Part shown: positions 6,756 through 22,058 of the stretch, piece after piece
How the letters are laid out: each line of letters starts with the position of its first letter
Position numbering within the stretch: position 1 is the first letter of the stretch
NCBI RefSeq assembly: GCF_025666195.1
Contig: NZ_CP102592.1
Location: 868,001 to 932,000 of the forward strand
Source of the DNA: Xanthomonas sp. CFBP 8443
GTDB taxonomy: Bacteria > Pseudomonadota > Gammaproteobacteria > Xanthomonadales > Xanthomonadaceae
Reading direction: 5' to 3'
Length of the DNA stretch: 64,000 nucleotides
The notes under the pieces: model-generated
What the model was told of the DNA's origin: nothing
Seen by the model: only the letters and a program-made list of their open reading frames with translations
Databases searched by the model: none
Made by a program: the position numbers and the translations under genes

Positions 6756-6863
6756 CCGGCCGCGCAGCGTGACCGGCTTCGCAACCGCAGCGGCGGCGCC
6801 GCGCTAAGGTGGCGCAGCTGGCAACACACGGTGCCGGCGTGCGACGACCCTGGGAGGTGTTCG

Positions 6864-7823
6864 ATGCAGGCACGAAACGCGCGGTGGTGGATGCTGGCGC
6901 TGTTGCTGATCACGGCGGGTGCCGTGCAGGCGCAGACCTTTCGTCTGTACCTGGCGCCGGACGGCGACGACACCGCGGCCGGGACCAGCGCGGCGACCGC
7001 GCTGCAGACCCTGGCCACGGCGCAACAGCGGCTGCAGGCGAAGTCGCCGCAGACGGAAGTGGAGATCGTGGTCGCGCCCGGCACCTATGTCGGCCAGTCG
7101 GTCCGCTGGACGTTCCGCAACGGCGCGCCGTTGCGCATCGTCGCCGCGGCCGGCGCCGCGACGATGCCGCGCTTCGACGGCGCTGGCGGCGGCACCTGGT
7201 TCACCCTGCGCGGCGGCGGCAACCAGCGCACCCAGCTGCAGTTCGTCGGCCTGGAGGTCAGCGACTACTGGATGGCGATGGACCTGGGCAGCAGCAACGC
7301 GGCGGCCGATGGCAACAGCGGCAACGAGATCCGCGGCATGCGCTTCACCCGCATCGGCGGCATCCACGGCCAGGGCAGTCCGGCGTATTCGTACGCGGCG
7401 ATCCGGCTGCAGAACTCCCGCGACAACCTGATCGTCGGCAACCAGTTCAACGCGATCGAGAACAGCAAGGAAACCTCCGGCTACATCCATGCGCTGTACC
7501 TGGCGCGGCATTCGACCGGCAATGTGGTGAAGGACAACACCTTCACCGACGTCAACGGCGACGTGGTGCGCACCCGCGATGCGTCCGACGCCACCGAGGT
7601 GCGCGGCAACCGCTTCGTGCGCGCCGGCAAGTACGCCGCGTTCTCCGACTGGTTCGACCTGGACCAGGGCGAATGCCCGTCGCAGGGCGGGCGCTTCATC
7701 GACAACACGGTCGGCGCCGGTTACTACGGCGCGATTCCGGCCACCGCCACCACCGGCGCCGACGACGCCTGCGGCGCGCTCAGCACGCCGCGCATCGCCG
7801 AGAGCGGCACGATTCGCGAGTGA
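6864..7823 (+). CDS. Secreted right-handed parallel beta-helix protein
   Basis: A 319-residue product with a clear signal peptide (MLALLLITAGAVQA, cleavage after about residue 25) and a ladder of short beta-strand repeats containing N-x-I/F-x motifs (GNEIRGMRFTRIGGI, DNLIVGNQFNAIEN, GNVVKDNTFTDVNGD, ATEVRGNRFVRAGKY). That pattern is typical of pectate-lyase-like helices. The opening FRLYLAPDGDDTAAGTSAATALQTLATAQ resembles the capping region of DUF1565-type proteins. No catalytic residues could be assigned, so a polysaccharide substrate is only a guess. The start follows a good ribosome site (GGGAGGTG). The C-terminus (TTGADDACGALSTPRIAESGTIRE) is repeated twice downstream. Confidence 0.8.
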   Translation: MQARNARWWMLALLLITAGAVQAQTFRLYLAPDGDDTAAGTSAATALQTLATAQQRLQAKSPQTEVEIVVAPGTYVGQSVRWTFRNGAPLRIVAAAGAATMPRFDGAGGGTWFTLRGGGNQRTQLQFVGLEVSDYWMAMDLGSSNAAADGNSGNEIRGMRFTRIGGIHGQGSPAYSYAAIRLQNSRDNLIVGNQFNAIENSKETSGYIHALYLARHSTGNVVKDNTFTDVNGDVVRTRDASDATEVRGNRFVRAGKYAAFSDWFDLDQGECPSQGGRFIDNTVGAGYYGAIPATATTGADDACGALSTPRIAESGTIRE

Positions 7824-7874
7824 GATGAGCAGCGCGGGCCTTCGTGTCTGTGCTGGACGCTTGCGGGACAGACT

Positions 7875-7940
7875 GTGGGAGCGACTTCAGTCGCGACGGG
7901 CTCTACCGGGAAAGCCTGTCGCGACTGAAGTCGCTCCCAC
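7875..7940. repeat. REP-like double hairpin, copy R2 (GACTTCAGTC type)
   Basis: Arms GTGGGAGCGACTTCAGTCGCGAC (7875-7897) and its complement (7918-7940). Compared with R1 the core GG/CC pair is A/T, changed on both sides so pairing is kept. It is part of the 255-bp duplicated unit. Confidence 0.9.
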
Positions 7941-7973
7941 AGGGACACCATCGAGTGACGTCGCCTGCATCGA

Positions 7974-8078
7974 ATGCGCTTGCTCGATGTCAGCGGCAGC
8001 TGCACCACTGGCGCCGACGACGCCTGCGGCGCGCTCAGCACGCCGCGCATCTCCGAGAGCGGCACGATTCGCGAGTGA
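7974..8078 (+). pseudogene. C-terminal remnant 1 of a beta-helix paralogue
   Basis: An open frame of 34 codons reads MRLLDVSGSC followed by the TTGADDAC...ESGTIRE terminus of the upstream beta-helix protein and a stop. No ribosome site or signal peptide is present. The residues before the shared part (SGSC) differ from the intact gene, suggesting descent from a paralogue rather than a copy of the intact gene. Confidence 0.55.
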
Positions 8079-8129
8079 GGTTGGGCAGCGCGGCCTTCGT
8101 GTCTGTGCTGGACGCTTGCGGGACAGACT

Positions 8130-8195
8130 GTGCGAGCGACTTCAGTCGCGACGGGCTCTACCGGGAAAGCCTGTCGCGACTGAAGTCGCTCCCAC
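8130..8195. repeat. REP-like double hairpin, copy R3 (GACTTCAGTC type)
   Basis: Duplicate of R2 displaced by 255 bases. The left arm begins GTGCGAGCGAC, one mismatch from R2, while the right arm is unchanged. It is embedded in the tandem duplication. Confidence 0.88.
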
Positions 8196-8228
8196 AGGGA
8201 CACCATCGAGTGACATCGCCTGCATCGA

Positions 8229-8333
8229 ATGCGCTTGCTCGATGCCAGCGGCAGCTGCACCACCGGCGCCGATGATGCCTGCGGCGCGCTCAGCACGCCG
8301 CGCATCGCCGAGAGCGGCACCGTGCGCGATTGA
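8229..8333 (+). pseudogene. C-terminal remnant 2 of a beta-helix paralogue
   Basis: Same structure as the remnant 255 bases upstream: MRLLDASGSC then the shared terminus ending ESGTVRD and a stop codon. The ending GTVRD (rather than GTIRE) and the end of similarity right after the stop suggest this copy is closest to the original 3' end of a deleted neighbouring paralogue. It is unlikely to be expressed as a protein. Confidence 0.55.
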
Positions 8334-8361
8334 GCGTGCCGCAGAGAGTGCGCACCACCCT

Positions 8362-8441: not shown

Positions 8442-9794
8442 TTAACTTGCAGACGCCAGCGGCAGCTGCACCGCCACGCACAGTCCGCCTTCGTCGCGGT
8501 TCTGCAGCGACAGGCGGCCGCCGTGCGCCTCGATGATCTCGCGGGTCAGCGCCAGGCCCAGGCCGGTGCCGTTGCGCTTGGTCGAATAGAACGGCATCAG
8601 CGCGTTCTGCAGCACCGCCTCGTTCATGCCGCTGCCGCGGTCCAGCACCTCGATGCGCAGCCACTCCGGCCGGGTGGAGACGCGGATGCGCACGCTGTCG
8701 GCCGGCGGCAGGCCTTCGGGGCTGGATTCGTGCGCGTTCTTGACCAGGTTGAGCAAGGCCTGCTGCAGCTGCGCCGGATCGACCCGGCTGTGCAGGTCGG
8801 GCGCCTCCAGCTCCAGCGCGAACGGAATCTGCTGCTGCAATCCGCCGAGGAACTGCGCCCAGTGCACGGTCTGCAACTGCGGCTGCGGCAGCTTGGCGAA
8901 GCGCGCGTAGCCGCGGATGAAGCCTTCCAGGTGCCGCGCGCGCTCCTCGATGGTGCCGAAGACTTCCTCCAGCCGCTCCACCTTCTGCCGCCGCACCAGT
9001 TCGGCGCCCGAATGGGCCAGCGAGGCGATCGGCGCCAGCGAATTGTTCAATTCGTGGCTGATGACCCGGATCACCTTCTTCCAGGTATGCACTTCCTGGC
9101 GGCGCAGTTCGGCGGTGAGCAGTCGGATCAGCAGCAGTTCGTGCGGGCGGCCGTTGAGGCGGAAGCGGCGCCGCGACAGATGGTAGACCTGCTCCTCTTC
9201 CGGATCCTCGTCGTCGTCGATGGTGAACAGGCTGTCGCCGCCGCGCGCCACGGCCTCGCGCAGCGCCGGCGGCATGCCCAGCAGCAGGTCGTCCAGGCGC
9301 TGGCCTTCCAGTTTCCAGCCGCCGTGCAGCAGCTTGCGCGCGGCCAGGTTGGAGAACACCACGCGGCGCAGGCCGTCGCCGCCGTTGGAGGTCAGCAGCA
9401 TCGCCACCGGCGTGTTCTGCACCATGGTGTCGAGCATCAGTTCGCGTTGCGCCAGGCCCTGGCGTTGCTCGCGCAGGATCTCGCCCAGCTGCCGGTGCGC
9501 GGCGACCATCTCGCCCAGTTCGTCGTCGCCGCGCCAGTGCACGCCGAAGTTGTATTCGCCGTCGCGGTAGCTGCTGACGGTGCCGGCCAGGGCGCGGAAC
9601 AGCGAGCGCATCGGCGCGGTGGCGCGGCGCAGCGTCCACCACATCAGCGCCAACAGCAGCAGCGCCGACAGCGTCACCACTTCCCAGCCACGGTCCATCC
9701 AGTACGCCAGCAGCCACGGCGTCGCCGCGGCCAGCGCCAGCACCGGCAGCAGGCGCAGGAACAGGCCGGCGGTGAAGGAGCGGCGCAATTTCAT
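8442..9794 (-). CDS. NtrY-like membrane sensor histidine kinase
   Basis: A 450-residue kinase expected to phosphorylate the response regulator encoded just upstream. Two adjacent membrane helices (about 10-30 and 38-56) bracket almost no periplasmic loop. They are followed by a HAMP-like linker, a PAS-like region (about 115-225), the dimerisation box VISHELNNSL with phospho-acceptor His247, and the ATPase domain (LLNLVKNAHESS, DRGSGM, FYSTKRNGTGLGLALTREI). With so little periplasmic sequence it probably senses something in the membrane or the cytoplasm, like NtrY-type kinases. Its start overlaps the regulator stop by 4 bases, showing translational coupling. It is the last gene of the ABC operon. 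Confidence 0.92.
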   Translation of the reverse strand: MKLRRSFTAGLFLRLLPVLALAAATPWLLAYWMDRGWEVVTLSALLLLALMWWTLRRATAPMRSLFRALAGTVSSYRDGEYNFGVHWRGDDELGEMVAAHRQLGEILREQRQGLAQRELMLDTMVQNTPVAMLLTSNGGDGLRRVVFSNLAARKLLHGGWKLEGQRLDDLLLGMPPALREAVARGGDSLFTIDDDEDPEEEQVYHLSRRRFRLNGRPHELLLIRLLTAELRRQEVHTWKKVIRVISHELNNSLAPIASLAHSGAELVRRQKVERLEEVFGTIEERARHLEGFIRGYARFAKLPQPQLQTVHWAQFLGGLQQQIPFALELEAPDLHSRVDPAQLQQALLNLVKNAHESSPEGLPPADSVRIRVSTRPEWLRIEVLDRGSGMNEAVLQNALMPFYSTKRNGTGLGLALTREIIEAHGGRLSLQNRDEGGLCVAVQLPLASAS

Positions 9795-11128
9795 TCGCGC
9801 GGGATTCCGTAGCGGTCCATGCGCCGGTACAGCGCCTGCCGGCTCATGCCCAGTTCGTTCGCGGCTTGGGCGATGACGCCGTTGGCGCGGCCCAGCACCG
9901 CGACGATGCGCTCGCGGTCCGGCTCGGCGCCGGCGGCGGGGCGCTGCGGCGCCGGCTTGGGCAGGTTGAGGTCGGCGGCGTCGATCTGGCGGCCGCCGGC
10001 CAGCAGCTCGGCACGCTGGATCACGTTGCGCAGCTCGCGCACGTTGCCTGGCCAGGCATGCCGCTGCAGCGCCTGCGCCGCGCCGGCCGACAGCGGCTTG
10101 GCGCCGGACAGGAAGTGCTCGGCCAGCGGCAGGATGTCGCCGGGGCGGTCGGCCAGCGCCGGCAGCGACAGCTCCACCGCGTTGAGCCGGTAGTACAGAT
10201 CCTCGCGGAACGCGCCGTCGCGGATCATCGTGGTCAGGTCGGCGTTGGTGGCGCTGATCACCCGCACCTTGACCTGGCGCTCGCGGTTGGAACCCAGCCG
10301 TTCGAAGCGCCCGGTCTCCAGCACGCGCAGCAGTTTCATCTGCCCGGCCAGCGACAGGTTGCCGATCTCGTCCAGGAACAGGGTGCCGCCATCGGCGGCT
10401 TCGAACTTGCCTTCGCGGACCTTGTTGGCGCCGGTGTAGGCGCCGGCTTCGGCGCCGAACAGTTCGGCCTCGATCAGTTCGGCCGGAATCGCGCCGCAGT
10501 TCAGCGCCACGAACGGGCCCTGCCGCATCGGCGAATTGGCCTGGATGATCTCTGCGATCTTTTCCTTGCCGCTGCCGTTGGGGCCGGTGATCAGCACCGG
10601 CAGTTCCGAGCGCGCGACCTGGCAGGCCAGGGCGATGGCGCGCTCGCTGGCCGGGTCGGCGAACACTGCGCCGCGCAGTTCGTAGCGCTGCGCCAGCTGC
10701 TGGCGATGGCGGCGTTCGCCGTCGCGGCGCCGTTCCAGTTCGCGCCGCGCCTCGGACAGCTCCAGCAGGTTGTTGACCGTGGTCAGCAGCTTGCGGTCGT
10801 CCCAGGGCTTGGCCAGGTAGTCGGCGGCGCCGGCCTTGACCAGTTCCACCGCGCTGCTGAGCTGGGTCCAGGCGGTAAGCAGGATCACCGGCAGGTCCGG
10901 GTGGCGCGCGCGGATCGCATCGAACAGCGCCACGCCTTCCTCGCCCGAGGTGGTGTCGGCGGTGAAGTTCATGTCCTGCAGCACCAGATCGATGTCGCCC
11001 TCGGCCAGGCGCTGCAGTCCGGCGTCCGGGCTGTCCGCGTGCACCGTGTCGATGTCGTGCAGGGAGAACAGCACCTCGAGCGCGGTGGCGACGGCGGGGT
11101 TGTCGTCGATGATCAGGATGCAGGGCAT
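9791..11128 (-). CDS. NtrC-family sigma-54-dependent response regulator
   Basis: A 445-residue activator with three domains: receiver (1-120, acidic pocket IIDDNP, phospho-acceptor Asp52, Lys in AKPWDD), AAA+ sigma-54 activation domain (about 150-370), and a Fis-type helix-turn-helix (VIAQAANELGMSRQALYRRM). The Walker A is GPNGSGKE and the sigma-54 contact loop is GAYTGA (229-234), a conservative variant of GAFTGA. ATG 11128 starts directly at the receiver domain. The gene sits between the five permease genes and its kinase. A sigma-54 promoter and inverted repeats at the head of the operon (19966-20068) are the obvious targets, implying autoregulation. Confidence 0.93.
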   Translation of the reverse strand: MPCILIIDDNPAVATALEVLFSLHDIDTVHADSPDAGLQRLAEGDIDLVLQDMNFTADTTSGEEGVALFDAIRARHPDLPVILLTAWTQLSSAVELVKAGAADYLAKPWDDRKLLTTVNNLLELSEARRELERRRDGERRHRQQLAQRYELRGAVFADPASERAIALACQVARSELPVLITGPNGSGKEKIAEIIQANSPMRQGPFVALNCGAIPAELIEAELFGAEAGAYTGANKVREGKFEAADGGTLFLDEIGNLSLAGQMKLLRVLETGRFERLGSNRERQVKVRVISATNADLTTMIRDGAFREDLYYRLNAVELSLPALADRPGDILPLAEHFLSGAKPLSAGAAQALQRHAWPGNVRELRNVIQRAELLAGGRQIDAADLNLPKPAPQRPAAGAEPDRERIVAVLGRANGVIAQAANELGMSRQALYRRMDRYGIPRE

Positions 11129-11285
11129 CGGGAGCCTTGTCGGATGGCCGGGGCGGAACCGGCGGATGCGGGACGAGGCGGCATCATCGCAGCCCCGGCG
11201 TGGCTTGTCGTGTGCGTGATGGGCGGCAGGCAGCCGACCTGTGGCGCCGCGGGCAAGTGCGGTGTCGTCGCCGCGATCGCGCGCA

Positions 11286-12458
11286 TCACCGGTACGCCGC
11301 AGGCGACAGCCGCGCGGCGCGTGCGGCCGGGCCGCGCATCGCCAGCCAGCCGCCACCGAGCAACAGCAGCGCGATGGCCAGCGGATACAGGGGCGGCGGC
11401 GACAGCGCCGAAAACTCGAGCAGGACGCGGCGCAGCAGCGCAGCGATGGCCACGCCCATGGCGATGCCCAGGCCGCACAGCAACAGGTTCTCGCGGCGCA
11501 GATGGGTACGGATCTGTGCCGCGCGCGCGCCAAGCGCGCGCCGCAGCGCGATCTGCCGGTAGCGCTGGCTCACCATCGCCTCGCTGATGGCGTAGACCGT
11601 CGCGAGCGTGCCGAACAGCCACAGCGCCGCGCCCGCGGCGAGCAGCATCAGCCGATGGCGATGCAGGCGCAGTCGCTGCAGGCGCAGCTCGCCGGCGCTG
11701 CTCAGTTCGTGCAGCCGCCCCGGCGCGATCCGCTCCGCGTCTGCCGCCAGCCGCGCGCGGACCCGGGCCGGGTCGCCGGGCGCGACCCGCAGCACGTACA
11801 GCGCGTTGCTGCGATCGTGCAGGCGCAACGGCAGGATGGCGCTGTCCTCGCCGCCCTCGCCAGGCGTGCGCAGCTGCTCGACGATGCCGATCACCCGCGC
11901 CGGCGGTTTGCCGCCCAGATGCACCATCTGTCCGAGCGCGTCGCCATTCGGGAACAGCCGAGCCGCCAGCGGCCGGGTCAGGATCACCCGCTGCGCGAGG
12001 TTCAGCGCAGAGGGCGATGCGAGATCGCGATACTCGTCGCTGCTGAAGTCGCGACCGCGCTGCAGGCGCAGGCCCAGCGCCGCCAGCAGTCCGGGATCGC
12101 CGAGGTAGGTGCTGGCCTGGAACTGCCCGCCAGCACCGTCGGCACGTGGTCCCATCAGGGTGTCCCAGCGCTCGGGCCCGAACGGCAACTGGTTGATTGC
12201 CGCGACGTGCAACACGCCGGGCACGGCGCGCAAGGCCGCCGCCTCGCGCTGCGCCGCCGCGGCGGATACCCGGCCGCCGAGTCGCAGCGTCAGCAGATGC
12301 GCGTCGTCGTCAATGCCGCTGGTCGCCTGCATGCGCGCATGCGCCTGGTTGGCCAGCGTGCCCAGGGCGAGCAGCACCGGGTAGCTGATCGCCATCTGCA
12401 GCACGATCAGCGTCGCCAGCAGCGTGTGCCGGCGCAGCGAGACCAGGAAGCGATCCAT
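11286..12458 (-). CDS. FtsX/MacB-like ABC permease (type B, third and most divergent copy)
   Basis: A 390-residue permease: one N-terminal helix (about 12-35), a large extracytoplasmic MacB-type domain (about 40-265), then three helices near the end carrying the FtsX signature (QRYRQIALRRALGARAAQIRTHL). Its N-terminus (SLRRHTLLATLIVLQMAISYPVLL) aligns by eye with the two 408-residue type-B permeases upstream but is clearly more diverged, and the exported domain is shorter. It ends 157 bases before the regulator gene. MacB-type permeases do not transport through a classic channel; they transmit ATPase motion to periplasmic partners. Confidence 0.88.
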   Translation of the reverse strand: MDRFLVSLRRHTLLATLIVLQMAISYPVLLALGTLANQAHARMQATSGIDDDAHLLTLRLGGRVSAAAAQREAAALRAVPGVLHVAAINQLPFGPERWDTLMGPRADGAGGQFQASTYLGDPGLLAALGLRLQRGRDFSSDEYRDLASPSALNLAQRVILTRPLAARLFPNGDALGQMVHLGGKPPARVIGIVEQLRTPGEGGEDSAILPLRLHDRSNALYVLRVAPGDPARVRARLAADAERIAPGRLHELSSAGELRLQRLRLHRHRLMLLAAGAALWLFGTLATVYAISEAMVSQRYRQIALRRALGARAAQIRTHLRRENLLLCGLGIAMGVAIAALLRRVLLEFSALSPPPLYPLAIALLLLGGGWLAMRGPAARAARLSPAAYR

Positions 12459-12473
12459 GGCCAGCGTCGTCCG

Positions 12474-13700
12474 TCACGCACTGCGCGTGGCGACCGCCGG
12501 CGGCACGCGGGTGGCGCGCCGCGCCGGGCCGAGCACCGCGAGCTGGCCGAGCAGCCACAGCGCCAGCGCGCCGACCGGCAGGTACCACAGCGGCAGCCGT
12601 TCCAGTTCGTAGGCGCTCATCAGGTACAGGTTGGCGGCGTAGGCGAGCAACATGCCCAGCACGATGCCGACGCTGGCGAGCAGGAAATTCTCCAGCTGGA
12701 AGTAGCGCAGCACCTGGCCGCGGGTGGCGCCGAGCGCGCGGCGCACGCCGATCTGCTTGGTGCGCTGCTGCACCCAGAAACTGGCCAGGCCGACGATGCC
12801 CAGCGCGGTGATCAGCAGCAACATCACGCACACGCCGGCCAGCAGCCAGGCCATCGCACGGTCGTTGCGGTAGTAGGTCGCGCGCGCCTGCTCCAGCGAG
12901 ACGCTGCTCTTGTCGCGGATCATGCGCCGCGGGCCGTGCGCCAGCAGCAGCTTGCGCGCCTGCCGCTGCACCGCCTCGCGCTGCGCCGGATCGTCCACGC
13001 GCAGCACGTAGGTGCCGCGGGTGTAGGCCATGTTCACCGGGAACAGCATGGTGCTCTCGTAGTCGGTGGCCGAGCCGTAGTCGCGCGGCTGGACCAGGCG
13101 CTCGACCACGCCCACCACCCGCTGCTGGCCGTACACGTAGATCGATTTGCCGATCGCCGATTGTCCGGGGAACAGGCGCTGGGCCAGGGCTTGGCTCAGG
13201 ATCACCGAGGGAACGACGGCATCGTCGTTGGGGTCCATCAAGCGCGCGTGGTCGAGGAATTCGTCGGCGTTGAAGCCGCGGCCGGCGACCAGCTTCAGCC
13301 CCAGCGTGTCCAGCAGCTGCGCATCGCCGAAGTAGTTGGTGGCGCTCAGGGTGGCGCGTTGCTGGTCCGGGCCGAGCGAGATGCCGCTGGCGCCGATCGA
13401 GCTGCCGAACAACGGCTGGTTGATGACGCTGGCATTGCGCACGCCGGGAATGCGCCGCAGCGCATCCAGGTCCTCGCGGGTGAGCGCGGCGGCATCGCCG
13501 CTGCCGAGCACGCTGCCGACCTTGACGTAGACCAGGTGCGCTTCCGCCACGCCGGTCGGGCGCTGCATGTTGTGCAGGCGCGTGCCGATCAGGAACAGCG
13601 CATTGCATACCACGGCGCAGCTGAAGGCGATCTCCAGCACGATGAGCAGTGCGGCGATCTTGTGCTTGCGCAGGCTGGAGAGGATGGGGCGGATAGGCAC
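12474..13700 (-). CDS. FtsX/MacB-like ABC permease (type B, second copy)
   Basis: 408 residues with MacB topology: helix 1 near residues 15-38 (AALLIVLEIAFSCAVVCNALFLIG), an exported domain to about residue 280, then three terminal helices around the FtsX block (QQRTKQIGVRRALGATRGQVLRYFQLENFLLA). It is nearly identical in length and layout to the type-B permease at 15089-16315, and the two share the QRTKQIG.RRALGATRGQ.LRYFQ.ENFLLAS stretch, so they are tandem duplicates. The gene lies 37 bases after the preceding permease gene and 15 bases before the next. Confidence 0.9.
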   Translation of the reverse strand: MPIRPILSSLRKHKIAALLIVLEIAFSCAVVCNALFLIGTRLHNMQRPTGVAEAHLVYVKVGSVLGSGDAAALTREDLDALRRIPGVRNASVINQPLFGSSIGASGISLGPDQQRATLSATNYFGDAQLLDTLGLKLVAGRGFNADEFLDHARLMDPNDDAVVPSVILSQALAQRLFPGQSAIGKSIYVYGQQRVVGVVERLVQPRDYGSATDYESTMLFPVNMAYTRGTYVLRVDDPAQREAVQRQARKLLLAHGPRRMIRDKSSVSLEQARATYYRNDRAMAWLLAGVCVMLLLITALGIVGLASFWVQQRTKQIGVRRALGATRGQVLRYFQLENFLLASVGIVLGMLLAYAANLYLMSAYELERLPLWYLPVGALALWLLGQLAVLGPARRATRVPPAVATRSA

Positions 13701-13737
13701 GGGGGCGTTCCTGGCAGGAAGGGGGACGCGTAGCGCG

Positions 13738-15039
13738 TCACTGCGACTTGAGTTGCATGGCGGTCTGCACGCGCATGGCCTGCCATGCAGGCAATGCGCC
13801 GGCCAGCAGGCTGCTTCCCAACGTCAACGCCAGTGCGACGAACAGCATGCTGCCGTCCATGTGCGCCAGTGCGGCATAGTCGGCCGGTTGCCGGCGCACC
13901 AGCCACAGGCCGAGCCAGGCCAGCAGCAGGCCGGCCATGCCGCCCGCCGCGCCGATCATTGCCGCTTCCACCAGGTGCTGGGCGAAGATCGCCCGGCGCG
14001 ATGCGCCGAGCGCCCGCCGCACCCCGATCTCGCCGCCCTGGCGCAGGAATTTGGCCAGCATCAGGCCGACGGTGTTGAGCAGGCAGATGCCCAGGAACAC
14101 CAGCGCCAGCCACAGTTGCAGGCGCACGTCGGCCGGTACCGCATGGTTGCGGTCCAGCCATGCCATCACGTCGCTCAGGCGCACGTCGGCGGGGTGGGTG
14201 AAGCGGCCGCCATCGTGTTGCTGGCGCGCGTAGCCGTCCAGGTAATCGCGGTAGGCGGCGCGCTTGCCGGCGTCGGCGAGTTCCACCCAGTACTGGATCC
14301 ACGTGCAGGGCGCGTTCTCGCTGTCTTGGCCATCGCCGCTGCTGCCCCAGCACTCCATGGTGCCGCTCGCTCCCATCTGCAGGTCGCGCGAGGTCGAGAA
14401 CGGGACGAAGATGTCCTCGCTGTCGCCGTATTCGGTGTTGGTCAGGTCGTAGAAGCGCGGGTTCATGCTCCAGTCCTCGGTAACGCCGACGACGCGCAGC
14501 ATGTTTTCGCCGACCTGCAGGTCGCGCCCGGTGCTGTCCACGTCGCCGAACAATTGCTCGTTGAGCTTGCGCGAGAGCACCGCCACGCGCGCGCGCCGCG
14601 TGTCGTCCTCGGCGGTCCAGGCGTGGCCGTAGCGCATCGGGACCGCGAACATCGGGAAGAAGTCGGACGAGGTGAAGCGTGCTTCGACGTGGGACGGCGT
14701 CTGTTCGGCCTTGACCGGCACCACGTTCACGCCGCCGGCGGACATCATCGCCTGGCGATCGCCGCGCTTGTCGCGCAACAGCGCTTCGGCGTCGCGGCGG
14801 GTCAGCTGCAGCGGCTCCTCGCCGGCCGGCTCGTACTTGTCGTCCGGATAGACGTTCATCTCCACGTAGAAAAGTTGCGCGCTCTTGCCCGGGATCGGAT
14901 CGGCGGCCAGCACGTGGAACACGGTCAGCGTGGTCATCGAGGCGCCGATGCCGACCGCGATGGCGAGCACCATCAACGCGGTCAGCAACCGGTTGCGACG
15001 AAAGCTGTGCAGCGCCAGTTTGCAGTAGTAGCCGAACAT
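13738..15039 (-). CDS. FtsX/MacB-like ABC permease (type A, second copy)
   Basis: 433 residues. The start ATG at 15039 was chosen over an upstream in-frame one because MFGYYCKLALHSFRRN matches the start of the other type-A permease (MFGYYFRLALHSFRRN). Helix 1 is about 20-42, the exported domain runs to about 300, and three C-terminal helices contain GEIGVRRALGASRRAIFAQHLVEAAMIG. Type-A proteins probably pair with type-B proteins as a heterodimer on one ATPase dimer; this is inferred from the A-B-A-B gene order. Confidence 0.9.
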   Translation of the reverse strand: MFGYYCKLALHSFRRNRLLTALMVLAIAVGIGASMTTLTVFHVLAADPIPGKSAQLFYVEMNVYPDDKYEPAGEEPLQLTRRDAEALLRDKRGDRQAMMSAGGVNVVPVKAEQTPSHVEARFTSSDFFPMFAVPMRYGHAWTAEDDTRRARVAVLSRKLNEQLFGDVDSTGRDLQVGENMLRVVGVTEDWSMNPRFYDLTNTEYGDSEDIFVPFSTSRDLQMGASGTMECWGSSGDGQDSENAPCTWIQYWVELADAGKRAAYRDYLDGYARQQHDGGRFTHPADVRLSDVMAWLDRNHAVPADVRLQLWLALVFLGICLLNTVGLMLAKFLRQGGEIGVRRALGASRRAIFAQHLVEAAMIGAAGGMAGLLLAWLGLWLVRRQPADYAALAHMDGSMLFVALALTLGSSLLAGALPAWQAMRVQTAMQLKSQ

Positions 15040-15088
15040 CGGGAGTCCTGAAAAAAAGGGCCGGCATGACGCCGGCCAAGGGGACACG

Positions 15089-16315
15089 TCAAGCGCTGCG
15101 CGTGGCGACGGCCGGCGGCACCGCCGCGGCGCGCCGCGCCGGTGCGAACACCGCGATCTGGCCGAGCAGCCACAGGGTCAGCGCGCCGAACGGCAGGTAG
15201 TACAGCGGCAGCCGCGGCAGTTCGTACTTGCCCATCAGCCACTGGTTGATCGCGTACGCCAGCAGCATGCCGAGCACGATGCCGGTGCTGGCCAGCAGGA
15301 AGTTCTCGGTCTGGAAGTAGCGCAGGATCTGCCCGCGGGTGGCGCCGAGCGCGCGGCGGATGCCGATCTGCTTGGTGCGCTGCTGCACCCAGAAGCTGGC
15401 CAGGCCGACGATGCCCAGCGCGGTCACGATCAGCAGCGCGATGCACACCGCGCCGAGCAACCACACCATCGCGCGGTCGCCCTGGAAGTATTCGTCGCGT
15501 ATCTCGGCATAGGTCTGCTGTTTCAGCACCAGGCGGCTGTTGTCCACCTTCATCAGCGCCGCGGTCGCCGAGGCCAGCACTTCCTGGCGCCGCGCCGGAT
15601 CGGTGACGCGCAGCACGTACAGGCCATCGGTGTAGCTCAGGCGCAGCGGCAGCAGCATCGCGTAGTCGATTTCGGCCAGGCCGTTGCCCGCGTTCGGCCG
15701 CGCCAGCGTCTCGACGATGCCGACGACGCGTGCGGCCACTGGCCCGGTATAGACGGTCTTGCCCAGGGCGTTCTGCCCGGGGAACATCTTTTCCGCGGTG
15801 GCGCGATTGAGAATGATGGCGGTGCCCTTCTTCTGCACTTCCTTGTCGGTTTGTGCGGTTTCCAGATCCAGGTATTCGTCGGGCGTGAAATCGCGCCCTG
15901 CCGCCAGCCGCAGGCCCAGGGTCTGCAGCGTGCCTTCCTCGGCCATGTACTGCGCGGCATTGAGGGTGGACCGCTCCTGGTCCGGGGTCAGCGACAGGCT
16001 GGTGTTCCAGGAGTAACGGACGAACGGCACCTGGTTGAGCACGGTCGCGTTGCGCACGCCCGGCACCGCGCGCAACGCGGCCAGGTCCTCGCGGGTGCGC
16101 GCGGCGGCGTTGACCTGCTGGCCGATGCCGCCCAGCGAGACCGTCACCAGTTCCGATTCGGCGATGCCGCTGGGCCGGTGCAGGGTTTCTATGCGGTTGC
16201 CGATCAGGAACAGCGCGTTGCACACGATCGCGCAGGCCAGCGCGATCTCAAGCACGATCAGCGCGGCGGCGGTCTTGTGCCGGCGCAGGGTGGAGAGGAT
16301 GGGGCGGATGTCCAT
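15089..16315 (-). CDS. FtsX/MacB-like ABC permease (type B, first copy)
   Basis: 408 residues, beginning MDIRPILSTLRRHKTAAALIVLEIAL. ATG 16315 is preferred over a longer open frame because the protein then aligns with its paralogue MPIRPILSSLRKHK. It has one N-terminal helix, a MacB-type exported domain, and terminal helices with the FtsX block. It follows the first type-A permease by 64 bases. The high similarity to the copy at 12474-13700, especially in the C-terminal third, indicates a duplicated A-B gene pair. Confidence 0.9.
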   Translation of the reverse strand: MDIRPILSTLRRHKTAAALIVLEIALACAIVCNALFLIGNRIETLHRPSGIAESELVTVSLGGIGQQVNAAARTREDLAALRAVPGVRNATVLNQVPFVRYSWNTSLSLTPDQERSTLNAAQYMAEEGTLQTLGLRLAAGRDFTPDEYLDLETAQTDKEVQKKGTAIILNRATAEKMFPGQNALGKTVYTGPVAARVVGIVETLARPNAGNGLAEIDYAMLLPLRLSYTDGLYVLRVTDPARRQEVLASATAALMKVDNSRLVLKQQTYAEIRDEYFQGDRAMVWLLGAVCIALLIVTALGIVGLASFWVQQRTKQIGIRRALGATRGQILRYFQTENFLLASTGIVLGMLLAYAINQWLMGKYELPRLPLYYLPFGALTLWLLGQIAVFAPARRAAAVPPAVATRSA

Positions 16316-16379
16316 GGCGATAACCTTGTGAGGGACCTTCGTTGGCGGTCTGCCCGCCGCCGTGCGGCGGGCGTGGTGG

Positions 16380-17678
16380 TCAGGACGATTTGAGCTGCAG
16401 TGCCGGCGCGACCTGAATCGCACGCCAGGAGGGCAGCAGGCCCGCCAGCAGGCTGGCGACCAGGGCCAGGGCGAAGGTCAGTGCCAGCATCGTGGGATCC
16501 AGATGAGCCAGCTTGGCGTAGCCGGTGGGCTGCTGGCGGACCGCCCATAGCCCGAGCACGGCCAGGCCGAGTCCGGCGATGCCGCCGGCCAAGCCGATGG
16601 TGCCGGCCTCCACCAGGCACTGCGCGAAGATCGCGCGGCGCGAGGCGCCCAGCGCGCGGCGCACGCCGATTTCGCCGCTGCGGCGCAGGAACTTCGCCAG
16701 CAGCAGGCCGACGGTGTTGAGCAGGCACACCAGCAGGAAGCCCATCGCCAGCCACAGCTGCAGGCGCACGTCGCCCGGCACCACTTCGTTGTGGTCCAGC
16801 CACTGCATCACGTTGCGCAGGCGCACATTGTTCGGCCGCTCGAAGCGGCCGGCGGCACGCTGCTGGTTGGAATAGTTCTCCAGGTAGGCCTTGTAGTCGG
16901 CGACCTGCGTCCGATTTTCCAGTTCCGCCCAATACTGGACCCAGATGCAGGGGGCGTTGAGTCCAGTCGGCTCGCCATTGCTGTCGCCGAAGCAGTTCAT
17001 GCTGCCGTTGCGGTCCATCTTCAGGTCCATCGCCACCGAGAACGGCAGGTAGACCTGCTCGTCCGAGCCATAGGTGTTGGTGATGTCGTAGAAGCGCGGA
17101 TTGGGGTCCCACGTATCCAGCACGCCGACGATGCGGAAGGTGTTCTGGTCCATGCGCAGTTCGCGGCCGACGCTGTCGGCGCCGTTGTACAGCTTCTCGT
17201 TGAGCTTCTTGCTGATGACCGCCACGCGCTCGTGGCGCTCGTCTTCCGTGCCGGTCCAGCCGCGGCCGTACAGGAACGGCGTATCGAACATCGGGAAGAA
17301 GTCCGCCGAGGTGAAGCGCACTTCCGACTTGAACGGTTTCAGGCCGCTCTTGAGCGGTTCGATCGCCGCCCCGCCTCCGCTCATCATCGCCTGCCGCTTC
17401 GCCCGCTTTTCGCGCAGCAGCGCTTCGGCGTCGAAGCGCGTGATCTGGAAGTCCGGCTCCTCGCCGGGCTGGTAGCCGGCCTTGGGCCGAGGATCCACCT
17501 GCACGTAGAACAGCCGATCGCTCTTCTGCGGGATCGGGTCGCCGGAGAGCACGTAGAACACGGTCAGCGTGGTCATGCTGGCGCCGATGCCCAGCGCGAT
17601 GGCCAGCACCATCAGGGCGGTGAGGATCTTGTTGCGGCGGAAGCTGTGCAAGGCGAGGCGGAAGTAGTAGCCGAACAT
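16380..17678 (-). CDS. FtsX/MacB-like ABC permease (type A, first copy)
   Basis: 432 residues: helix 1 (ILTALMVLAIALGIGASM, about 18-38), a large exported domain rich in aromatic and charged residues, then three helices bearing GEIGVRRALGASRRAIFAQCLVEAGTIGLAGG. It is the first permease after the ATPase gene (81-base gap). The exported domain is the part most likely to meet the substrate or the adaptor. Similarity to the copy at 13738-15039 runs along the whole protein. Confidence 0.9.
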   Translation of the reverse strand: MFGYYFRLALHSFRRNKILTALMVLAIALGIGASMTTLTVFYVLSGDPIPQKSDRLFYVQVDPRPKAGYQPGEEPDFQITRFDAEALLREKRAKRQAMMSGGGAAIEPLKSGLKPFKSEVRFTSADFFPMFDTPFLYGRGWTGTEDERHERVAVISKKLNEKLYNGADSVGRELRMDQNTFRIVGVLDTWDPNPRFYDITNTYGSDEQVYLPFSVAMDLKMDRNGSMNCFGDSNGEPTGLNAPCIWVQYWAELENRTQVADYKAYLENYSNQQRAAGRFERPNNVRLRNVMQWLDHNEVVPGDVRLQLWLAMGFLLVCLLNTVGLLLAKFLRRSGEIGVRRALGASRRAIFAQCLVEAGTIGLAGGIAGLGLAVLGLWAVRQQPTGYAKLAHLDPTMLALTFALALVASLLAGLLPSWRAIQVAPALQLKSS

Positions 17679-17759
17679 GGGTGGCTCCGGGCGGGCGCTG
17701 CGGGTGGCGACGATGGGTGGGATGGCGATGGCGCGCAGCGCCGGGCCGGGTGGGTTCGC

Positions 17760-18482
17760 TCAGCGCGCGACGTTGGGGATGGTGCCGATCGCCGCATGCG
17801 CCAGCACCGGTTCGCGCTGCAGGTCGGTGGCCTGGCCATCGACGATGTGCACGTTGCGCTGCGCGCGCGCGGCCAGTTCCGGGTCGTGGGTGACCATGAC
17901 GATGGTCGAGCCCTGCGCGTTGATCTCTTCCAGCAGTTCCATCACCCCGCGCGCCATCTGCGAGTCCAGGTTGCCGGTCGGTTCGTCGGCCAGCAGCAGG
18001 CGCGGGCTGCCGGCCAGCGCGCGCGCGATCGCCGCACGCTGTTGCTGGCCGCCGGACAGTTCGGACGGGTAGTGCTTCATCCGCGAGCCGAGCCCGACCC
18101 GGCCCAGCGCGTCCTCGATGCGCTGCTTGCGTTCGGCTGCGGCCATGCCGCGGTAGCGCAGCGGCACATCGACGTTGTCGAACAGGTTGAGGTCGGGGAT
18201 CAGGTTGAAGCCCTGGAAGATGAAACCGATCTTCTGGTTGCGCATGCGCGAGCGCGCGTCGTCGTTGAGGTTGCTGACGTCCTGCCCATCGAGCACGTAC
18301 TGGCCGCTGGTGAAGGTCTCCAGCAGCCCGGCGATGTTGAGGAAGGTGGTCTTGCCGGAGCCGGACGGCCCGGTGACGGCGACGAATTCGCCTTCGCGCA
18401 CATGCAGGTCCAGCGAGCGCAACGCGTGCGTTTCGACCTGTTCGGTGCGGAAGACCTTGGAGACGGAGCGCATTTCGAGCAT
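17760..18482 (-). CDS. MacB/LolD-type ABC transporter ATPase
   Basis: 240 residues with all ABC motifs: Walker A GPSGSGKTT (38-46), Q-loop in KIGFIFQGFNLIPDLN, signature LSGGQQQR, Walker B RLLLADEPTGNLD, and the H-loop VTHDPE. The GFNLIP and ADEPTGNLDS wording is characteristic of the MacB/LolD/FtsE group (type VII ABC systems). It is the only ATPase in the operon and so must serve all five permeases. Heptamer array C separates it from the adaptor gene upstream, which could change the ratio of the two products. Confidence 0.95.
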   Translation of the reverse strand: MLEMRSVSKVFRTEQVETHALRSLDLHVREGEFVAVTGPSGSGKTTFLNIAGLLETFTSGQYVLDGQDVSNLNDDARSRMRNQKIGFIFQGFNLIPDLNLFDNVDVPLRYRGMAAAERKQRIEDALGRVGLGSRMKHYPSELSGGQQQRAAIARALAGSPRLLLADEPTGNLDSQMARGVMELLEEINAQGSTIVMVTHDPELAARAQRNVHIVDGQATDLQREPVLAHAAIGTIPNVAR

Positions 18483-18519
18483 GAGGTGGTTCCTTCGCTA
18501 GGAGTGATGTTGTGGTGCC

Positions 18520-18653
18520 GGGACTGGGGACTGGGGACTCGGGACTCGGGACTCGAAAAGCTCACGCTTCGTTACCCGTCTCCCCGCCGAAATTCAGTTG
18601 TTCTGCATCTTGCGTTTGCTTTTCCGAGTCCCCGGTCCCGAGTCCCGAGTCCC
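18520..18653. repeat. Paired heptamer array C between adaptor and ATPase genes
   Basis: Five units (GGGACTG twice, GGGACTC three times) fill 18520-18554, and four complementary units (GAGTCCC, CGGTCCC, GAGTCCC, GAGTCCC) fill 18626-18653. It has the same layout as array A, and the inner flanks are also shared (GCGAAAGC or GAAAAGC on one side, GCTTTTCCGAGTCCC on the other). It sits inside the operon, 4 bases beyond the adaptor stop codon. Confidence 0.85.
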
Positions 18654-18657
18654 GGCT

Positions 18658-19929
18658 TCAATGCACCGTCACCTGCGGCGCCTCGCCGAACAGGTCGCTG
18701 CCGGAGACGACGACGCGGTCGCCGGGCTGCAGGCCCGAACGCACCTCGACCTCGCCCAGGCTGGTGACGCCCAGTTCCACCGGGCGGCGGATCGCCGCGC
18801 TGCCGTCCATCACGTAGGCGTAGCGGCCGCCGGATTGTTCGACGAACGGGCCGCGCTCGAGCTTGAGCACGTTCTTGCGGGTATCCAGCAGCACCCGCGC
18901 GCTCATGCGCTGGCTCTGGCGCAGGCCGGGCGGCTGCTTGTCGGTGAAGCGGATGCGCGCGTTGACCTCGCCGTTGACCACTTCCGGCGACACCGCCGAG
19001 ATCGCACCGGCGAACGGTTCGCCGGCGCCGCTGGTCAGCTGCGCCGGCATGCCGATCGCCAGGTCGCGGGCGAAGCTTTCCGGCACCTTGATCTCCAGTT
19101 CGAACTTGGACAGATCCACCACGCTCAGCACCGGTGCGTTGGCGGCGACGTTGGTGTGCTGGGACACCTGCACCTGGCCGACCTGGCCGTCGAACGGCGA
19201 GCGCAGCGTCAGCAGCTCCACCTGCCGCTTCACCTCGGTCACCACCGCGCGCTGGCGCTCGGCCAGCAGGCGCTTGTTGCGCGCGTCCAGGCCGGCGCCT
19301 TGGGTCTGCAGGCCGGAATCCTTCTGCGCATGGCTCATCGCGATGTCGGCCTTCTTCAGCGAATCCTGCGCCTTGGCCAGTTCCACCGCCGGCACCGCAC
19401 CGCCGTCGTAGCCGCGTTGGTAGCGTTCCAGGTCGCGGCTGGCGGCTTGCCGCTCGATCTGCGCCTGGTCGACCAGCTTGCTGGCGTTGGCGCGCGCCAG
19501 TACCGCATCCAGGTCGGCGCGACCGGCCTCGGCTTCCAGGCCGGCCAGCGTGGCCTCTTCCTGGGCGAGCTTGCTGCGCAGTTCGGGGCTGTCGATCTCG
19601 GCCAGCTCCTGGCCCTGCTTGACCACGTCGCCGGCGACCACCTTCAGGCTCACGGTGCCGCCGGAGATCGCGTAAAGGGTCGGGCTGTTGGCGGCGATCA
19701 GGCGCCCGTCGGCGGAGATGTCGCGGACCAGGTCGCCGCGGCTGACCGTGGCGATGCGCACGCGTTGCGCATCGAACGAGCGGCTGCCGGCGATCCAGCC
19801 GCGCGCGGCGAAGGCGATGCCGAGCAGCACCGCCAGGCCGACCAGCGCAGGCCAGAACCAGCGGCGCCAGGCGGCGGCGGAGCGGGGGCGGGCGAGAACC
19901 TGGTCCTGGGCGGAAGTGTCGCGAATCAT
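18658..19929 (-). CDS. HlyD/MacA-type periplasmic adaptor protein
   Basis: 423 residues with a cytoplasmic N-terminus, one membrane helix (about 24-45), then the adaptor fold: a biotinyl-lipoyl-like strand pair (VRDISADGRLIAANSPTLYAISGG and LRSPFDGQVGQVQVSQHTNV) bracketing a long coiled coil (about 110-230), followed by beta-barrel and membrane-proximal domains (FELEIKVPESFARDLAIGMPAQL). Such adaptors link inner-membrane MacB-type complexes to a TolC-like outer-membrane channel; no channel gene lies in this window. It is the first gene of the operon, with its predicted transcription start only about 27 bases upstream. Confidence 0.92.
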   Translation of the reverse strand: MIRDTSAQDQVLARPRSAAAWRRWFWPALVGLAVLLGIAFAARGWIAGSRSFDAQRVRIATVSRGDLVRDISADGRLIAANSPTLYAISGGTVSLKVVAGDVVKQGQELAEIDSPELRSKLAQEEATLAGLEAEAGRADLDAVLARANASKLVDQAQIERQAASRDLERYQRGYDGGAVPAVELAKAQDSLKKADIAMSHAQKDSGLQTQGAGLDARNKRLLAERQRAVVTEVKRQVELLTLRSPFDGQVGQVQVSQHTNVAANAPVLSVVDLSKFELEIKVPESFARDLAIGMPAQLTSGAGEPFAGAISAVSPEVVNGEVNARIRFTDKQPPGLRQSQRMSARVLLDTRKNVLKLERGPFVEQSGGRYAYVMDGSAAIRRPVELGVTSLGEVEVRSGLQPGDRVVVSGSDLFGEAPQVTVH

Positions 19930-19965
19930 CGGGTCGGGTCGGCGCAGTGGAGATGAACGAATTCA

Positions 19966-19983
19966 AAGCATGCTGCGTGCCAA
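19966..19983 (-). promoter_or_regulatory. Sigma-54 (RpoN) promoter of the ABC/two-component operon
   Basis: The reverse strand reads TTGGCACGCAGCATGCTT, close to the consensus YTGGCACGNNNNTTGCW. The invariant GG (19981-19980) and GC (19969-19968) are exactly 10 bases apart. The predicted start of transcription is near 19956, about 27 bases before the adaptor start codon. The operon itself encodes an NtrC-type activator, which supports the reading. Confidence 0.8.
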
Positions 19984-20019
19984 TCGCAAATGCTTGAAAG
20001 ATAGTATTTTTATGTGGGA

Positions 20020-20068
20020 CGGACGGCTGTCCGGGTGTCCGCGGACACGTTCGCGGACACCGTGTCCG
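20020..20068. promoter_or_regulatory. Cluster of three inverted repeats, likely activator binding sites
   Basis: Three dyads built from GGAC/GTCC half-sites lie side by side: CGGACGGCTGTCCG (20020-20033), the perfect palindrome GTGTCCGCGGACAC (20035-20048), and CGGACACCGTGTCCG (20054-20068). They lie roughly 65-110 bases upstream of the predicted sigma-54 start, the usual place for NtrC-type enhancer sites. The bound protein is inferred to be the operon's own response regulator. Confidence 0.7.

Positions 20069-20225: not shown

Positions 20226-22058
<1,833 letters not shown>

Follow-up and report, generated by a model that had tools for sequence, protein, structure and literature searches.

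Could a single ATPase serve five membrane permeases? This question is raised by a nine-gene operon of Xanthomonas sp. CFBP 8443, which lies within a 64,000-nucleotide stretch of the genome (NZ_CP102592.1, positions 868,001 to 932,000; this whole stretch is referred to as the window). On the minus strand, from position 19929 down to 8442, the operon encodes an adaptor, an ATP-binding cassette (ABC) ATPase, the permeases A1, B1, A2, B2 and B3, a response regulator and a histidine kinase, with intergenic gaps of 15–175 nucleotides (nt) and a 4-nt overlap between the regulator and kinase genes. A first-pass annotation, made from the DNA letters alone, had reported these nine genes in this order, on this strand and with short gaps, all of which was confirmed. 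Its interpretation, that one MacB-type ATPase is shared by the permeases, is partly supported overall, and its core has been strengthened by comparison across genomes. With moderate confidence, and on the basis of sequence comparison, we favour a reading in which one motor, one adaptor and one sensor would serve interchangeable permease pairs in a sigma-54-controlled type VII export operon.

The five permeases fall into two types. Among NCBIfam models, A1 and A2 align to the first half and B1–B3 to the second half of ADOP (TIGR03434), with 140–189 bits vs. 30–54 for MacB and 18–22 for lolCE, and thus an A-B pair has the appearance of a single permease split in two. In the mechanism that we propose, A and B would together form one transporter of this split-ADOP kind, consisting of two unlike subunits with four transmembrane (TM) helices and a periplasmic domain each. 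One ATPase, one adaptor and an outer-membrane channel presumably encoded elsewhere would serve several such pairs in turn, and the periplasmic domains, and presumably the substrates, would be particular to each pair. Pairs would behave as cassettes, subject to duplication, loss, relocation and exchange between a fixed front (adaptor and ATPase) and a fixed back (regulator and kinase), the four chassis genes. The kinase would sense inside the membrane, perhaps via the transporters themselves, and phosphorylate the regulator, which would then bind palindromes upstream and activate the whole operon, its own gene included.

Permease cassettes and the ATPase of the operon

The genus is an early-branching Xanthomonas group that contains X. 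albilineans, X. bonasiae and others. Of its 20 genomes, counting that of the window, 19 carry the operon with 4–13 permeases; in the remaining genome, G004 (L085), the genes from adaptor through regulator have been lost and an N-truncated kinase remains beside glmS. At the family level, strong kinase matches come from 173 of 198 genomes, representing 50 of 54 genera, and 35 of 40 stretches, mostly one per genus, read adaptor-ATPase-A-B-regulator-kinase, with a single pair and no extra genes, a form that includes main-clade Xanthomonas and many Stenotrophomonas. The first-pass annotation proposed checking the gene order in other genomes of this family, which it had rightly named as Lysobacteraceae; the chassis and a single pair are conserved, and the five-permease set varies. 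Within the order, strong regulator matches come from 53 of 121 genomes (34 of these outside the family), and the transporter genes accompany the regulator in 16 of 20 order-level stretches fetched. A class-wide sample of 274 gave five regulator matches, two of which lie outside the order, both with a single pair. The operon also occurs in records labelled Bacillus subtilis and Undibacterium (L118 and L162), which are probably contaminated or misbinned contigs.

Altogether 98 loci were counted, leaving out L166 and L170 (regulator without transporter genes), and 92 of them are complete when L068, L085, L167, L173, L181 and L182, in which a chassis gene is missing in the stretch, are set aside. 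A single pair is found in 58 of the 92, and 34 hold 2–12 pairs. Arrays of Rhodanobacteraceae reach 6, 7 and 12 pairs, the largest (G278) being adaptor-ATPase-12x(A-B)-regulator-kinase with 24 permeases; L015 has a true count of 13 permeases, with its pair number assigned by hand as 6. At least nine changes between the single-pair and multi-pair states are required by the chassis tree, which is a rapid FastTree phylogeny with some weak and some long branches, built on a non-random set of the genus plus chosen representatives. A single A-B pair is likely the starting state.

The gene order within arrays is A-B-A-B, and unpaired extras are always B and never A (16 of the 92 loci, at least seven changes on the same tree). 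In trees of A and of B, the sequences form groups M0–M5 with nearly identical membership, suggesting that the pair mostly travels as a unit. The distances among A and among B are correlated accordingly (Mantel r 0.93, n = 197 pairs; the highest of 300 permutations reached 0.14), where an A fragment at the end of a stretch was entered twice for L066/L015, affecting one row. The nearest neighbour is identical for A and B in 118 of the 197 pairs, and in 174 the neighbour by B is within the five nearest by A. Outside the counted set, Xanthomonas sp. XNM01 (L136:7675-8364) has a 230-residue A-type fragment after its A-B pair, which is probably a decayed second cassette. Large gaps in the loci were also considered as decayed cassettes; this was rejected, as 21 searched gaps gave one single weak permease match and several hold other genes.

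While chassis genes are 80–99% identical within the genus, cassettes are gained, lost, moved and replaced between them. Group M0 occupies the first position in three genomes of the genus and the second in two others, and M1 (in the A tree) is first or second in the genus and last in L081, which shows that cassettes move. The window's own A1 groups with the single pair of a main-clade Xanthomonas (L040). For A2-B2, the synonymous divergence (dS) is 0.33–0.52 vs. L006, L007, L008 and L011, for a chassis dS of 0.12–0.20, and 0.17–0.27 vs. L020, L022 and L023. Since L006, L020 and L023 share one clade of the chassis tree, this pattern cuts across the clade, as expected if a cassette were replaced by an allele from another lineage, and we read the history of A2-B2 as a putative allelic replacement. 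The dS of B3 is 0.26–0.36 in all comparisons.

The first-pass annotation saw a duplicated A-B pair joined by a divergent third B. Two pairs and a divergent B are indeed present, with protein identities of 60% for A1/A2, 57% for B1/B2, 40% and 38% for B3 vs. B1 and B2, and 25–29% for A vs. B. However, a recent duplication is ruled out, since the pairs are 57–60% identical and each has orthologues in other species; judged by their sequences, the two pairs are old paralogues.

Against this variable number of pairs stands one ATPase gene. More than one ATPase between adaptor and kinase was found in none of 103 locus pieces (98 loci), a count that covers the operon strand. Genome-wide, ATPases of this subfamily (at least 75% identical) number one in 27 of 30 genomes and two in the other three. 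A-type genes, by comparison, number three in the window's genome, six each in G003, G009, G010, G012 and G228, eight in G267 and 15 in G278. Permease pairs thus outnumber the ATPases counted at this identity. When the six cassette types of the genus are compared, identity in the coupling segment is 77% for A and 85% for B, vs. 39% and 31% in the periplasmic domain; for this comparison the groups were taken from clusters of the A and B trees, and the borders of domain and segment were set by hand from hydropathy. The never-exceeded single ATPase on the operon strand, the arrays and the conserved coupling segment lend comparative support to the proposal that one ATPase would be physically shared. 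The first-pass annotation had held that sharing fails if ATPase and adaptor are found with a single permease; this is nearly the common state, as most complete loci have one A-B pair, and it does not refute sharing in the arrays.

The ratio of nonsynonymous to synonymous divergence (dN/dS) is 0.04–0.19 for the chassis and 0.10–0.47 for the permeases (three comparisons each), indicating purifying selection on average. In A1-B1 it is 0.14–0.30 in the periplasmic domain and 0.02–0.16 in the TM2–4 part; the contrast between the two parts is smaller in A2-B2. For B3, dN/dS is 0.36–0.47 (three comparisons).

Promoter, regulator and kinase

A putative sigma-54 promoter, TGGCACGCAGCATGCT, with GG at −24, GC at −12, near-consensus flanks and a conserved position, starts 53 nt ahead of the adaptor ATG. 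In a survey of the 76 loci with an adaptor, controlled by dinucleotide-block shuffles (n = 3800), a site at the same place matches at least 10 of 12 consensus positions in 73 loci and at least 11 in 65, vs. 14 and 0 of the 3800 shuffles; it was missed in L028, L042 and L051. The sigma-54-dependent promoter proposed in the first-pass annotation is thus well supported by sequence conservation, and the window's genome has two sigma-54 genes. About 50–85 bp further upstream lie the palindromes GTGTCCGCGGACAC and GGACACGGTGTCC. The general form GTGTCC-N0-5-GGACAC occurs in 40 of the 76 loci, or 47 under a relaxed pattern (0 and 1 of the 3800 shuffled controls), and loci without it are mostly from more distant genera. 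Another sigma-54-like site, TGGCACGGCCGTTGCG, which has one mismatch, was noted at 30290 of the window on the minus strand.

The exact 12-base enhancer core of GTGTCCGCGGACAC has one occurrence genome-wide, at this operon. A wider regulon was considered and rejected on this ground, as one-mismatch copies number 33, barely above the 25 of a reversed control. A looser palindrome, TGTCCNNGGACA, has 15 sites in the window's genome vs. 0 for the reversed control, and further targets of the regulator at these sites are possible.

The regulator is an NtrC-type activator with a receiver, an AAA+ domain containing GAYTGA and a Fis-type helix-turn-helix, although it misses the cut-off of the NtrC equivalog (341 vs. 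558.6 bits). GAFTGA is the loop motif of sigma-54 activators. The Walker A motif of the window's regulator reads GPNGSGKE. An identity with XibR was rejected: according to PMC5130282, XibR has 433 aa and is described as unlinked to a sensor, unlike the window's regulator. The activator and kinase that had been proposed as NtrC-like and NtrY-like fare differently, since the regulator is of NtrC type whereas the kinase is not NtrY by family score: no NtrY model is among the best 25 of its 79 matches, and the top one is AtoS with 91 of 646 bits. By hydropathy, two TM helices are predicted for the kinase, with few residues between them and almost no periplasmic loop, making it unlikely that it reads a periplasmic ligand by itself; the earlier suggestion that a specific envelope signal induces the operon is weakened accordingly. 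Among the 70 kinases of the classes listed, 60 combine two TM helices with a predicted loop no longer than 20 residues. This architecture, two TM helices with a very short loop, corresponds by hydropathy to that of intramembrane-sensing kinases, termed BceS-like here.

A proposed shared motor and its alternatives

Several observations weigh against a shared motor serving distinct pairs. L042 has an ABC ATPase, 29% identical, on the opposite strand within the 7 kb stretch between B and regulator (L042:2942-10203), and in the genome of the window a second ATPase, 77% identical, accompanies a stray A-B pair (G000:C1:2732858-2736281; L188:7356-10782). The R-x-A-L/V/I-G-A motif is absent in 9 of 142 A (including the A of M0) and 8 of 160 B sequences. 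The coupling segment is probably conserved throughout the MacB superfamily, which weakens the argument drawn from it. In the comparison of B2 with L008, change is faster in the membrane part than in the periplasmic one, and the constraint on B3 is equally relaxed in both domains; moreover, periplasmic divergence is a difference in sequence and does not itself mean different substrates. The 3′ ends of the B genes are alike by eye; DNA-level homogenisation at the cassette joints was rejected (codon identity at conserved residues 0.64 there vs. 0.67 overall), and the joints thus show no added DNA-level similarity that would point to a recombination mechanism. The regulator occurs without transporter genes in 4 of the 20 order-level stretches (L166, L170, L181 and L182), and no palindrome was found in 29 of the 76 surveyed loci even under the relaxed pattern.

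The second ATPase bears on a distinctly unlikely alternative, in which ATPases encoded elsewhere in the genome would drive the extra pairs, and these would merely share the operon. For genomes of the genus, eight stray A-B pairs located away from the operon, picked from the list of matches and not exhaustive, were inspected. Two (L188 and L198) have their own ATPase, 77–78% identical, two (L197 and L199) have an ATPase fragment alongside, and for four (L017, L018, L200 and L201) no significant ATPase match was found within the 13–17 kb fetched. Near the pairs of L188, L197 and L198, the opposite strand additionally encodes a distant ABC ATPase (27–28%). The ATPase-A-B set of the window's genome has an orthologous set in G003 (L198); no adaptor or regulator was found beside it, and the nearby OEP gene at 2739191-2740366 is about 3 kb distant. 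Its orthologue L197 (G010) has an ATPase cut to about 50 residues and intact permeases with a dN/dS of 0.04–0.05; a motor supplied in trans would explain why these permeases are kept, and a very recent loss would too. A second close ATPase in 3 of 30 genomes, the window's among them, and ATPases of 46–56% identity in many others favour independent motors. However, the other 27 genomes have a single ATPase above 75%, including G009, G010, G012, G228 and G278 with their 6–15 A-type genes, and in 4 of 5 inspected stretches (L192–L195) the 50–55% ATPase directly adjoins a fused ADOP of its own. Very unlikely, in turn, is a neutral tandem duplication that left redundant copies without separate roles. 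Such an account would fit copy numbers that differ among near relatives, the dN/dS of B3 near 0.4 in both domains and the loss of adaptor through regulator in G004, but the dN/dS of the permeases is below 1 in all comparisons, diverged cassettes remain open and are common to several species, and cassettes differ from one another more in the periplasmic than in the membrane part.

A third account gives the cassettes another main role, with the permease pairs acting chiefly as ATP-driven receptors that the kinase reads inside the membrane, as BceS reads BceAB, each cassette being an added input with its own clearance. We consider it rather unlikely. The short-loop, two-TM kinases speak for it, as do a regulator and kinase encoded within the operon that they appear to control, with the exact enhancer core found once in the window's genome; BceS, according to PMC5985334, requires its transporter for sensing. 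The regulator is of NtrC type, however, the permeases are pairs of four-TM subunits vs. the 10-TM BceB, the kinase may carry a cytoplasmic sensory segment, and the contact between kinase and permeases is only presumed. The shared motor with interchangeable pairs remains the reading that we prefer.

Family relationships, neighbours and significance

The system resembles several known transporters. All five permeases have MacB_PCD and FtsX domains (PF12704 and PF02687) above cut-off and four hydropathy peaks, which places them in the MacB superfamily (type VII ABC); the other Pfam matches above cut-off are HlyD_3 for the adaptor, ABC_tran for the ATPase, Response_reg, Sigma54_activat and HTH_8 for the regulator and HATPase_c for the kinase, whose HisKA match falls below it. 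The ATPase has its catalytic motifs (Walker A, signature, Walker B and H-loop). The earlier description of the permeases and ATPase as MacB-like is right for the fold: for AlphaFold models of A1 and B1 (pLDDT 81 and 87), the best PDB match is MacB (5gko; query TM-scores of 0.67 and 0.66), followed by a pneumococcal MacB-like pump and LolCDE, with BceAB and YbbAP lower. By sequence, however, the permeases are nearer to a split ADOP and the ATPase to the Dar type; the comparison with MacB, LolC and FtsX families that the first-pass annotation proposed puts the ADOP halves highest and MacB and lolCE far lower.

The permeases match halves of ADOP, with scores far below its cut-off of 622 bits; the A-then-B order is that of the halves of the fused chain, which is found above cut-off elsewhere in 13 of the 20 genomes of the genus, whereas the window's permease is split into two genes and stands in an operon with ATPase, adaptor and regulators. 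ADOP permeases are described as "orphans". DarBCD (NF038008, NF038010 and NF038007) likewise has a separate ATPase, a large permease and an adaptor, and gives the best NCBIfam match of the ATPase, but the operon's proteins all score below its cut-offs (ATPase 261 of 375 for DarD, adaptor 52 of 450, B1 21 of 700). In contrast to MacAB-TolC, with which the periplasmic core, the FtsX domain and the modelled fold are shared, the ATPase is a separate protein, the permeases form unlike pairs and several pairs stand beside one ATPase gene; with NF007826 the permeases reach 30–54 bits and the ATPase 222, vs. a cut-off of 966, and the MacA model NF008606 gives 63 vs. 342 for the adaptor. LolCDE, which also combines two unlike four-TM subunits with one separate ATPase and is among the structural matches, differs in the adaptor and the many pairs of the window's operon, and TIGR02212 (lolCE) has a cut-off of 362. 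BceABS also has a kinase without a periplasmic domain adjoining a MacB-superfamily transporter, whereas the window has an NtrC/sigma-54 regulator and another permease topology. BceR is an OmpR-type regulator. MceG of Mycobacterium and FhuC of Staphylococcus are single ATPases common to several permease systems (PMC9947336 and PMC10147376); those systems are importers, whereas here exporter-type pairs are arrayed beside the ATPase. SmaCDEF of Stenotrophomonas (smlt1651-4; PMC12189255) was rejected as a candidate, as its two published primers (PMC11356428) matched none of nine Stenotrophomonas-group loci with up to four mismatches allowed. In the open-access literature searched, neither this operon nor an arrangement of many MacB-type permease pairs with a single ATPase was found described, and the papers listed for ADOP were unrelated.

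The adaptor passes TIGR01730 (RND_mfp; 134 vs. 94.9 bits), as expected for a tripartite pump, and the OEP channel gene between ATPase and first permease in the G278 array (L190:16547-17959) supports such a pump. The genome of the window has 21 OEP (TolC-type) matches in about 11 genes, none inside the window, in agreement with the first-pass annotation. A DUF885 protein stands between the last B and the regulator in L174, L177, L184, L037 and L038, from two distant families in the same slot (two loci checked against Pfam, three called by similarity); further array genes encode an S33-type hydrolase in two loci (one checked) and proteins with DUF4440, PDZ and ankyrin domains. For what is presumably an exporter, the hydrolases give a bare hint that the substrates may be peptides.

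Table 1. Features of the operon and its surroundings, with positions in the window.
Feature	Position	Strand	Details
Adaptor (membrane-fusion protein), periplasmic, first gene	18658..19929	-	423 aa; HlyD_3, HlyD_D23; one N-terminal TM
ABC ATPase, sole one of the operon	17760..18482	-	240 aa; ABC_tran; best NCBIfam match DarD
Permease A1, N-half of ADOP, opens cassette M3	16380..17678	-	432 aa; TIGR03434 positions 6-401
Permease B1, C-half of ADOP, second in cassette M3	15089..16315	-	408 aa; TIGR03434 positions 411-801
Permease A2, opens cassette M4	13738..15039	-	433 aa; TIGR03434 positions 6-401
Permease B2, second in cassette M4, GTG start	12474..13700	-	408 aa; TIGR03434 positions 411-801
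Permease B3, B-type without partner	11286..12458	-	390 aa; TIGR03434 positions 411-797; RRALGA coupling motif retained
NtrC-type response regulator, predicted sigma-54 activator	9791..11128	-	445 aa; Response_reg, Sigma54_activat, HTH_8
Histidine kinase, two predicted TM helices	8442..9794	-	450 aa; HATPase_c; hydropathy 5-31, 36-58
Putative sigma-54 promoter element TGGCACGCAGCATGCT	19967..19982	-	conserved across related loci
Enhancer-like palindrome GTGTCCGCGGACAC	20035..20048	-	
Second enhancer-like palindrome GGACACGGTGTCC	20055..20067	-	
glmS, divergent neighbour, outside the system	20226..22058	+	conserved context

The operon is flanked by glmU on one side, with atp genes further out (translations read by eye), and by the divergent glmS on the other, which is found at more than 70% identity in 62 of the 98 loci, a number of the remaining stretches stopping short of its position. 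Just downstream of the kinase gene, a tandem repeat at 7748-8334 (period 255, 2.3 copies, 94% matches) copies the 3′ end of a gene (6831-7823) that, by eye, encodes a secreted beta-helix-like protein.

The usual description of the MacB superfamily is one permease dimer with one ATPase, whereas here one ATPase and one adaptor face 1–12 pairs, a number that differs between close relatives. If the shared motor is true, this would be a modular export system, the range of which is altered by cassette. A motor supplied in trans would concretely explain what could power ADOP-type permeases encoded far from any ATPase, and the single-pair, multi-pair and ATPase-less loci form a natural series that makes both the shared-motor and the trans-motor ideas testable. 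A doubtful but further-reaching possibility is an expandable sensor-exporter antenna, in which a dozen or more pairs would work with one ATPase, one adaptor and one membrane-embedded kinase; if so, each acquired A-B cassette would add a new channel of detection and removal without a new motor, promoter or regulator.

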